Shown: in pieces, positions 25,803 to 31,233 of the stretch
How the letters are laid out: every line of letters starts with the position of its first letter
How positions within the stretch are numbered: position 1 is the first letter of the stretch
NCBI GenBank assembly: GCA_014762625.1
Contig: JABURQ010000020.1
Span: 1 to 64,000 of the forward strand
DNA: 64,000 nt
Direction of reading: 5' to 3'
From: Planctomycetaceae bacterium
GTDB lineage: Bacteria; Planctomycetota; Planctomycetia; Planctomycetales; Planctomycetaceae
Notes under the pieces: generated by a model
The model's database searches: none
The model's input: the letters and a program-made list of their open reading frames with translations, nothing else
What the model was told of the DNA's origin: nothing
Program-made: the position numbers and the translations under genes

Positions 25803-28349
<2,547 letters not shown>

Positions 28350-28611: not shown

Positions 28612-29391
28612 TCACTGTCCCATCCTCACTAAGAGTTCTCCAACGATTTCTTGCCTATCTAATCCGAACTTCTCGAGCATCGAGATCACGATGCCTCCTC
28701 TTTCTTCCAATATCCCAAGTAGCAAATGATCGACGTCAATCTCGGACGCCCCCATACTCTCAGCCACAGCTTGTGCACCATACATGACATACTCACTGAG
28801 CGATGTGAGTTGAAAAATGTTGTCGTGGTTCCGATTTCGATCTGTAAACGATTCTTGCTCAACGAATTCTTTGACTCGCTGAATAGAGATCTCGTTCTCT
28901 GCCAAGAGTTCGTAACTGATCGTCTTTTCTTGCTGCAAGATGCCCAGAAGAATATGTTCCGGCCCCAGAAATGTATTCTTGAGTTCAAACATCGCTTCCG
29001 CTGCGCTCAACATCACTTTCCGGGCATTGTCAGAATAGGCTGGAATGTTGACGAGCCCTTTTCGTTTTTGCCGGATGGTGCTGTTCGGCTGTTTCTGCGG
29101 TCGAGCTGTGATCTGTTTGGTTTTTTTGTGTGATGGCCGGAGTTGCTTGGAATCTGAATCTCCTAACGAAACCATGTCAGGTCCCCATTGGATGATCTTC
29201 TCAACTTCCAGCCGAATCTTACGCGGATCGACTGCGAGGTTCTTGATTACGTTCGCGGCGACTCCCGTCCCTTCCTCCACGAGACCCAATAATATGTGTT
29301 CGGTCCCGATGTATTCGTCATTGAATTTATTGGCTTCCTGAGTTGCCAATTGTATTACTTTTCTGGCGCGGTCCGTGAATCGTTCATACAT
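28612..29391 (-). CDS. Stand-alone Clp N-domain protein with three repeats, no ATPase
   Basis: A 259-residue protein built from Clp N-repeats only. Repeat 1 (1-77) matches ClpC almost residue for residue (about 63 of 77 by eye), including YIGTEHILLGLV. A basic linker (80-115) follows. Repeat 2 (about 118-178) has NTFLGPEHILLGIL and repeat 3 (about 196-257) has EIDVDHLLLGIL. A normal Clp N-domain has two repeats; three, with no AAA module, is unusual. The N-part looks like a duplication from the adjacent clpC, while repeats 2 and 3 have diverged. It could act as an adaptor, a decoy for ClpC adaptors, or a phosphoarginine binder; these are guesses. Base composition is more AT-rich than clpC. 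ClpC follows 262 bp downstream on the same strand. Confidence 0.85.
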   Translation of the reverse strand: MYERFTDRARKVIQLATQEANKFNDEYIGTEHILLGLVEEGTGVAANVIKNLAVDPRKIRLEVEKIIQWGPDMVSLGDSDSKQLRPSHKKTKQITARPQKQPNSTIRQKRKGLVNIPAYSDNARKVMLSAAEAMFELKNTFLGPEHILLGILQQEKTISYELLAENEISIQRVKEFVEQESFTDRNRNHDNIFQLTSLSEYVMYGAQAVAESMGASEIDVDHLLLGILEERGGIVISMLEKFGLDRQEIVGELLVRMGQ

Positions 29392-29432
29392 GGCAGAAGT
29401 CTCCCCAAAGTCACGAGTCAATGAACAGCAAT

Positions 29433-29723
29433 TCACATGCCCAAGCATACTCTTACACCCACTCTTTGTCGTCTGGAAATCGGGGAGACAATTCGTCCCT
29501 GGAACTTAAACCCTGATCTCAAAACCGTTTCCCATCTTGCACGCCAATCGGGAATTTCTCCCTCCCACACAACTCCTCCTTGACGGTTGATTTCCGCAAG
29601 TCGTAATTCTCCAATAGGTTCAGCGAACAACTCTCGTCGAAAATCTTTCGCAATCGATTCAAACTGAACTTTCCAGGAATTTCCCGCCGTGTACGACCAC
29701 TGGACTGAAGCCGTCCGCCGCAT
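29433..29723 (-). CDS. Candidate small protein upstream of the Clp N-repeat gene
   Basis: A frame ending at 29433 encodes a protein-like stretch: FESIAKDFRRELFAEP, GELRLAEINRQGG, VVWEGEIPDWRARWE, then FKFQGRIV. No family is recognised. The ATG at 29721-29723 has GAGG five bases before it, but using it makes the gene overlap the 5' end of the divergent ThiE fusion by 35 bp; an internal non-ATG start is possible. It would be followed after 41 bp by the three-repeat Clp N protein on the same strand. It could also be chance or a remnant. Confidence 0.4.
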   Translation of the reverse strand: MRRTASVQWSYTAGNSWKVQFESIAKDFRRELFAEPIGELRLAEINRQGGVVWEGEIPDWRARWETVLRSGFKFQGRIVSPISRRQRVGVRVCLGM

Positions 29724-31233
29724 CCTCACCTCGGCAGCCAATCTGGCAGCTTTTCGAGAGCAGGCGACGATCGAGCCGGTCGGTCTGTTGTGGGCGTTGG
29801 TTCACGACGAATCCCGCGGCAGCGAGATTCTCGAACAGGCCGTCATCACCGTCGATGCGTTTCACGTCTACTTCCCCGACTATCCGCGCGAACTTCCCGA
29901 GGACGCTCCCAAGCCGATCGCCGCTCCCCGGTTGATGCTTTCCACCGCCAGCGAGTCGGTCTTCGACGCCGCGGGACGGGCGGCGGGAGAAGCCGGACGA
30001 CACATCGAATTGGGGAGCGAATACCTGCTGTATGGATTATTGACGACTCCCTCGGAAGCGAAACAGTTCCTCAACGAACGAGGCCTCTCCGCCTCGCAAC
30101 TCGAAGCCGAACTCTCTCTCCATTCCGGCTTCGAGACCGAACCGATCAGCGTTGAGGAAAAGCTCTCGTTCGACGGGCCGACTCCCGGCGATCAGACCGA
30201 CGCCTGGAGGATGATCGACGCCGCCGCCAATCGCTGTTCCGAAGGAATCCGCGTCGTCGAGGACATCGTCCGCTTTCGGGAAAACGATCCGACCGGCACC
30301 CGTCTGCTCAAAGAATGGCGACACGAGTTCGCCACCCTCGTGAAACTTCTCCCCGCGAAAGAACGACTCGCCAGCCGCGACACCACCGGCGATGTCGGCA
30401 CCACGATCTCGACCAAAGCCGAACAGCAACGCGCTTCGTTTGCCGACCTGCTGACCGCCAACTTCAAACGGGCCGCCGAGGCTCTCCGCACGATCGAAGA
30501 GACCGGCAAGCTGCTCGGTCCCGCGCATCGCGAGATTCCCAAACTGGCGGAAGCACTCCGCTATCAGGTTTATACGCTGGAAAAGACGATCGTCCGCACG
30601 CAGTCCATTCCCGACCAACTCGCCAACGCGAAACTGTACCTGCTGGTCACCGAGGCGCTCTGCAACACCTCTTTCAAGCAGGTGATCGAAGACTCGCTCG
30701 CCAACGGCGTCGATATCATCCAGCTCCGAGAGAAGACGCTCGACTCAAAGGAATTTCTCGAACGCGCCCGCTGGGTCCGCAAACAGTGTGACGACGCCGG
30801 CGCGTTACTGATGATCAACGACCGACCCGACCTGGCGGTCCTCTCGAATGCCGATGGCGTTCATCTCGGACAGGACGACCTCTCGATCGCCGAGGCGCGA
30901 CGCATTCTCGGTCCCGACAAACTGGTCGGTCGTTCGACGCACAACATCGAACAGGCGCGGACGGCCGTCCTCGAAGGAGCCGACTACCTCGGCGTCGGCC
31001 CGGTCTTTCCCAGCGGGACGAAAGAGTTCGAGGACCATGTCGGTCTCGATTACGTCCAGCAGGCGACCGACGAAATCAGCATTCCCTGGTTCGCGATCGG
31101 CGGCATTCAGGAAACGAACATCAAAGAGGTTCTCGACGCCGGTGCGAAAGGTGTCGCGGTCTGCGGCACGATCTGCGGCTCTTTGGAGCCCGGTTTCGCG
31201 ACGAGTCGCATGAAGCAGGTTCTGACAACTTAA
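29689..31233 (+). CDS. Clp_N-ThiD2-ThiE fusion: thiamine-phosphate synthase with an N-terminal Clp repeat domain
   Basis: A 514-residue three-part protein. Residues 1-62 and 81-143 read as two Clp N-repeats (IEPVGLLWALVHDESRGSEIL; IELGSEYLLYGLLTT). Residues about 171-305 match ThiD2, a hydroxymethylpyrimidine-phosphate kinase family often fused to ThiE, with DAAANRCSEGIRVVEDIVRF and NFKRAAEALRTIEE. Residues about 314-514 are ThiE, which joins HMP-PP and thiazole phosphate to thiamine phosphate: QLREKT, MINDRPDLA, DGVHLGQDDL, GRSTHN, GVGPVFPSGTK and AIGGI are all intact. The start is GTG with AGGAA nine bases upstream. No TPP riboswitch is visible before it. ThiD2-ThiE is known; the Clp_N addition next to clpC is odd. 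The second repeat keeps the Glu (E111) that binds phosphoarginine in ClpC, the first has Val. Confidence 0.9.
   Translation: MYDHWTEAVRRILTSAANLAAFREQATIEPVGLLWALVHDESRGSEILEQAVITVDAFHVYFPDYPRELPEDAPKPIAAPRLMLSTASESVFDAAGRAAGEAGRHIELGSEYLLYGLLTTPSEAKQFLNERGLSASQLEAELSLHSGFETEPISVEEKLSFDGPTPGDQTDAWRMIDAAANRCSEGIRVVEDIVRFRENDPTGTRLLKEWRHEFATLVKLLPAKERLASRDTTGDVGTTISTKAEQQRASFADLLTANFKRAAEALRTIEETGKLLGPAHREIPKLAEALRYQVYTLEKTIVRTQSIPDQLANAKLYLLVTEALCNTSFKQVIEDSLANGVDIIQLREKTLDSKEFLERARWVRKQCDDAGALLMINDRPDLAVLSNADGVHLGQDDLSIAEARRILGPDKLVGRSTHNIEQARTAVLEGADYLGVGPVFPSGTKEFEDHVGLDYVQQATDEISIPWFAIGGIQETNIKEVLDAGAKGVAVCGTICGSLEPGFATSRMKQVLTT

Follow-up and report, generated by a model that had tools for sequence, protein, structure and literature searches.

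Why does a planctomycete enzyme of vitamin B1 synthesis begin with the N-terminal domain of a Clp unfoldase, and what could this domain be doing there? The question arises from one gene in the window, the whole stretch of 64,000 nucleotides that was analysed, whose product a sequence-only reading had described as a Clp N-domain fused to a ThiD2-ThiE enzyme. This description was borne out by Pfam and NCBIfam profiles together with the predicted fold (Table 1). A Pfam survey puts Clp_N first among its low-versatility domains, with a versatility index of 0.231 (PMC2588589), and for this reason one would not expect to meet it throughout a class as a standing part of a vitamin enzyme. The component families are known, whereas the combination is, to our knowledge, new as a described object; a search of the open-access literature found no paper on a Clp_N-ThiD2-ThiE fusion.

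The fused protein and its predicted fold

Table 1. Coordinates, in the window, of the fusion gene, its parts and its neighbours
Feature	Position	Strand	Details
Clp_N-ThiD2-ThiE fusion gene	29689-31233	+	GTG start, 514 aa
Clp_N repeat 1 (residues 1-66)	29689-29886	+	helices 7-22, 30-39, 43-50, 55-61
Clp_N repeat 2 (residues 82-146)	29932-30126	+	helices 86-101, 110-119, 123-130, 135-146
Span with fusion-specific Arg11, Glu41 and Arg43, plus Val31	29719-29817	+	
Arg11 codon	29719-29721	+	
Val31 codon	29779-29781	+	
Glu41 codon	29809-29811	+	
Arg43 codon	29815-29817	+	
Glu111 codon	30019-30021	+	counterpart of ClpC Glu106 (pArg1 site)
Linker (residues 147-173)	30127-30207	+	low predicted confidence
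ThiD2 domain (residues 174-300)	30208-30588	+	HMP-P kinase family; PF17792, E 1.2e-37
ThiE domain (residues 316-495)	30634-31173	+	thiamine-phosphate synthase; PF02581 and TIGR00693 above cut-off
clpC	25803-28349	-	divergent (head-to-head) neighbour of thiE
Clp_N-only gene	28612-29448	-	between clpC and thiE; three Clp_N repeats

The N-terminal residues gave a significant match to the Clp_N profile (Pfam PF02861), with 22.1 bits for the whole protein against a cut-off of 20.7, and with 27.6 bits in two stretches when residues 1-164 were scanned alone. In alignment A1 the same family was matched by 12/12 relatives, with an E value of 1.7e-15 at best. This family evidence is far stronger than that of a single-sequence search of solved structures, which returned weak matches, every one of them a Clp or Hsp100 N-domain. 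After the N-domain, Pfam and NCBIfam identified ThiD2 and TMP-TENI only, the AAA+ modules being absent. ThiD2 scored 129.5 bits against a Pfam cut-off of 23.5, and TMP-TENI was matched with an E value of 3.2e-63. The enzyme part as a whole exceeded the NCBIfam cut-offs of PRK02615 (370.4 bits; cut-off 335) and of TIGR00693 thiE (195.2 bits; cut-off 145.1). The ThiE domain is complete, with the motifs QLREK, NDRPDLA, DGVHLGQDD, STHN, GPVFPSGTK and IGGI intact. The ThiD2 family is described as phosphorylating HMP-P, not HMP (PMC12345177). Genome-wide, the fusion protein is the single match to TMP-TENI, and the sole match to Phos_pyr_kin is weak and partial (37 bits); judged from these profile searches, the cell therefore probably has no thiamine-phosphate synthase other than the fused protein, which may also serve as its HMP-P kinase.

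The AF2 model of residues 1-174, computed from 12 aligned sequences taken from the window and named contigs, had a mean pLDDT of 86 and a pTM of 0.78, and in it residues 1-146 form two four-helix repeats with high confidence. By using Foldseek against solved structures, ClpC N-domains were obtained as the top matches (E 1.3e-5 down), and the whole leading part of the list consisted of Clp/Hsp100 N-domains and their relatives, including ClpC2 and ClpT2. In VIA-align, most ClpC N-domains scored Z 17-19, against 17.1 for ClpB and 15-16 for ClpA, over 127-142 residues. The two-repeat helical fold of the ClpC N-domain was thus found in the prediction; together with the significant profile match, this disposes of one of the two outcomes that the sequence-only reading had named as fatal to its proposal.

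Among the closest known systems is the ClpC N-domain (PDB 5HBN, 2Y1Q, 3WDB and 3FH2), which likewise has two four-helix Clp_N repeats at the N-terminus and superposes with Z 17.0-19.2 and an rmsd of 2.6-3.4 A over 131-139 residues. However, the identity is about 20%, and the fusion domains lack the AAA+ modules and form a separate tree group. The ClpB N-domain (PDB 1KHY) has the same fold, but here too the fusion is without the disaggregase modules and falls in a separate group. Plant ClpT1/ClpT2 and the Chlamydomonas ClpP-S1 entry, which serve the plastid Clp core as accessory subunits, resemble the fusion in having a Clp N-domain fold without AAA+ (Z 15-17), yet they are not fused to an enzyme. 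Another example is mycobacterial ClpC2 (PDB 8AD9 and 8B9O; Z ~16), in which a ClpC-like N-domain is also found off the unfoldase and linked to another domain; in ClpC2 this is a small dimerisation domain and the protein represses its own gene (PMC10030653), whereas the part attached in the fusion is a metabolic enzyme. The cyanobacterial-type ThiD2-ThiE (PRK02615) has the same enzyme halves in the same order but, unlike the fusion, lacks the N-terminal extension, whether it comes from cyanobacteria, Phycisphaerae or other phyla.

The full-length model had a pTM of 0.49, with the domains well predicted and residues 147-162 poorly so, and the placement of the domains relative to each other is therefore undefined. 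The predicted linker has a pLDDT of ~55; since the alignment behind the model is shallow, at 12 sequences, this loose tether may be partly an artefact. The linker measures ~25 aa in this protein and >90 aa in some Pirellulales sequences, and Pro152 within it is nearly invariant. In four Pirellulales-type loci (L043, L044, L047 and L048) a long linker joins the N-domain to ThiD2 and includes low-complexity sequence, as in SGEWRGESEEGRGEREEGRGE of L043.

Selection, distribution and the clpC neighbourhood

If translation began near residue 165, the Clp_N reading frame would go untranslated, and the enzymes of some relatives do begin there. This was addressed by comparison with two same-genus orthologues, at dS of about 0.9-1.5. 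The dN/dS values were 0.12-0.15 for repeat 1 and 0.09 for repeat 2, close to those of ThiD2 (0.08) and ThiE (0.08-0.10), and in the closer orthologue pair they were 0.06-0.13 throughout. At the protein level, purifying selection acts on residues 1-146 as it does on the enzyme domains, which places the translation start near residue 1. The frame is also intact in the same-genus orthologues, and 59 intact related extensions were collected. The late start, which the sequence-only reading had named as fatal to its proposal, is ruled out by this selection and conservation and retains a negligible probability. Across the class the mean column identity of the extension is 27%, the conservation being mainly at the level of the fold.

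The distribution was followed with a full-length profile. Of the best matches listed for the class, about 150 in number, most start at model position 1-24 and, by our count, about a dozen start at position 159 or later, i.e., without the extension. A script test for the extension gave a clean split, with 27-181 bits for extensions and <4 for the others. The extension occurs in at least nine families (f1, f2, f3, f4, f8, f9, f14 and f20, with a divergent form in f7). Among the carriers are Singulisphaera acidiphila DSM 18658, Planctomycetes bacterium Pan216 and metagenome-assembled genomes of Isosphaeraceae, Gemmatales, Pirellulales and Planctomycetaceae. Outside the class, none of the roughly 110 matches listed from a phylum-wide sample has the extension, all of them beginning at position 142 or later; the ThiD2-ThiE of cyanobacteria, Phycisphaerae and others lacks it. 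The extension has been lost in some lineages: it is absent, with the enzyme kept, in genomes of genus g34, in genus g7 (G007, G061) and in G015. The genomes seen of family f5 also keep the enzyme without it, whether by loss or by original absence. No stand-alone copy of it was found in the clpC-thiE gap of the extension-less genomes, where strong matches read as clpC, and no plasmid match was obtained. The fusion is real, old, kept by selection and not special to this genome, and it can be used to mark the class.

A maximum-likelihood tree of 48 N-domains unites the 23 fusion domains in one group (support 96/85), apart from both the ClpC group (99/99) and the ClpB group (96/96). Most simply, a complete two-repeat Clp N-domain was joined once, in this planctomycete class, to the front of ThiD2-ThiE. 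Repeat 2 of the fusion scores best with ClpC repeat 2 (37-38 bits, vs 29.7 for ClpB), whereas for repeat 1 the order is the opposite, the first repeat of ClpB scoring above that of ClpC. An inverted duplication of the 5' end of the adjacent clpC was considered as the source, an attractive idea as the genes stand head to head; since the extension falls outside ClpC in the tree and its first repeat lies nearer to ClpB, this origin is kept as a candidate only.

The earlier statement that the enzyme is encoded beside clpC was supported, with one correction. The pairing is conserved, with clpC and thiE head to head in 43 of the 47 informative same-family genomes that hold both on one contig, at 264-1859 nt from the clpC start to the ThiD2 start; in this genome, however, clpC is two genes away, with the Clp_N-only gene in between. 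A further 39 genomes have the two genes on different contigs, which is uninformative for fragmented assemblies. Nor is proximity needed for the domain to be retained, as the extension is kept in four genomes with clpC and thiE 0.4-4.9 Mb apart (G001, G004, G048 and G070). The pairing is also seen where the extension is absent (G007, G061, G015 and the f5 genomes G153 and G162), and linkage to clpC and possession of the extension are thus separable. The conservation of the divergent pair even without the extension suggests a shared control region. In the window, no TPP riboswitch or other RNA family was found at gathering scores. A contig filed under Candidatus Kuenenia (L101, CALQRA010000017.1) carries planctomycete-like clpC and thiE head to head. 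It is GC-rich, unlike Kuenenia, and is probably mis-binned; its use as proof that the pairing predates the class was set aside.

Conserved residues and the phosphoarginine question

Among the aligned extensions, Arg11 is found in 57/57, Glu41 in 57/59 and Arg43 in 50/59. This set, found in neither ClpC nor ClpB, distinguishes the fusion domains: at the three positions ClpC has Lys, Ser and Val, and ClpB has Glu, Gly/Asp/Gln and Ile. The fusion further has Pro-x-His in repeat 1 and Thr/Ser-Glu-His in repeat 2, which is the ClpB pattern (Pro-x-His and Thr-Glu-His), not that of ClpC.

The phosphoarginine sites of ClpC need Glu32 and Glu106, the latter mattering most for activation (PMC12583610). 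The residues previously named at the corresponding positions of this protein, E111 and V31, are correct. The counterpart of Glu106 is Glu in 54/59 extensions and that of Glu32 (position 31) in 4/59 only, so that one of the two glutamates is kept and the other lost. Glu111 had been offered as a hint of phosphoarginine binding, but its counterpart is Glu in 15/15 ClpC and also in 10/10 ClpB second repeats, and repeat 1 is ClpB-like; the residue is therefore no evidence for such binding and was discarded as a diagnostic. The positions that would correspond to F80, K85 and E89 of ClpC1 vary among the extensions. An McsB-family (ATP-guanido phosphotransferase) gene lies elsewhere in this genome (G000:C154:42911-43507, L170). 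Across the class, 118/119 genomes have such an arginine kinase gene, irrespective of the extension. Arginine phosphorylation of proteins is therefore probably a general feature of the class, and the signal probably exists there.

Possible roles of the domain and a neighbouring Clp_N gene

What we infer about the role of the N-domain takes three forms: docking, assembly, and control by ClpC adaptors or phosphoarginine. The preferred one, tentatively held and as a whole given slightly less than an even chance, is that the domain would be a docking module tethered to ThiD2-ThiE. It would stand outside catalysis, since the enzyme occurs without it in other phyla and in several lineages of the class. 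It would bind one Clp-type ligand, whether an adaptor, a partner protein or an unfolded or modified peptide, and would bring the presumed sole thiamine-phosphate synthase to this partner, which would serve to place the enzyme, control its activity or turn it over. The relevant face would probably be the Arg11/Glu41/Arg43 patch of repeat 1 rather than the two phosphoarginine pockets of ClpC. Several observations are consistent with docking: the Clp-type fold and profile; purifying selection near that on the enzyme domains; the single tree group apart from ClpC and ClpB; presence in most class genomes searched and in none of the listed out-of-class matches; retention with clpC far away, and absence in G007, G061, G015, g34 and f5 without loss of the enzyme; a low-confidence linker between well-predicted domains; and invariant polar residues specific to the family, on an enzyme whose ThiE is the only one in this genome. 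Fold-level conservation, however, is equally expected of a structural or oligomerising domain, the tether may owe some of its looseness to the small alignment, and Arg11/Glu41 could be a mere buried salt bridge. In the main rival, assembly or stabilisation, which is rather unlikely, the N-domain would oligomerise the enzyme or pack on ThiD2/ThiE, for stability or HMP-PP channelling, with no outside partner. The fusion-specific residues could then make an intramolecular contact, and the concentration of conservation in core and fold, as well as retention independently of clpC, would fit; yet the domain-less ThiD2-ThiE is the common form outside the class and occurs in some lineages within it, the long linker varies among sequences and is predicted with low confidence, and Clp N-domains are as a rule mobile and do not oligomerise.

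Improbable, by comparison with these, is a tie to ClpC/ClpP in which the N-domain would recruit or compete for ClpC adaptors or arginine-phosphorylated proteins, leading to regulated turnover of the enzyme or acting as a decoy for ClpC ligands. Although such ligands are known for ClpC N-domains (PMC12583610), the counterpart of Glu106 is kept in 54/59 extensions and the N-domain of mycobacterial ClpC2, off ClpC, can compete for ClpC ligands (PMC10030653), Glu111 is equally conserved in ClpB, the other site is lost and the ClpC1-equivalent positions vary; the near-universal McsB-family kinase and the frequent head-to-head clpC speak for the tie, but both are also present where the domain is missing. 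Control by ClpC adaptors or phosphoarginine is thus possible, with nothing specific to support it, and the fuller version, in which the domain would read the adaptor or arginine-phosphorylation signals of ClpC so that stress loading ClpC moves, sequesters or destroys the enzyme, is more improbable still. If this is true, planctomycetes would have subjected vitamin B1 synthesis to the protein quality-control system. Were the extension a neutral relic, left by an accident at the boundary of two genes that stand head to head, this would agree with the divergent clpC, with the absence of the extension in several lineages and with another Clp_N duplicate in the same gap of this genome; dN/dS of 0.06-0.15 in both repeats nearly refutes this reading, and with invariant residues across the class and retention after separation from clpC it is very improbable. 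The fusion makes it possible to ask whether central metabolism is coupled to Clp signals, and its natural occurrence in the cultured Singulisphaera acidiphila allows the binding role of a Clp N-domain to be studied away from an unfoldase.

The product of the Clp_N-only gene is a protein of 278 aa with three repeats, of which the first closely copies ClpC repeat 1 and the other two are divergent. Its translation may in fact begin at an internal ATG at 29391 (MYERF...). In two same-genus genomes (G003 and G059) the clpC-thiE gap is ~0.5 kb, which leaves no room for this gene, and it therefore looks like a separate duplication; its product is possibly a ClpC2-like decoy or ligand binder.
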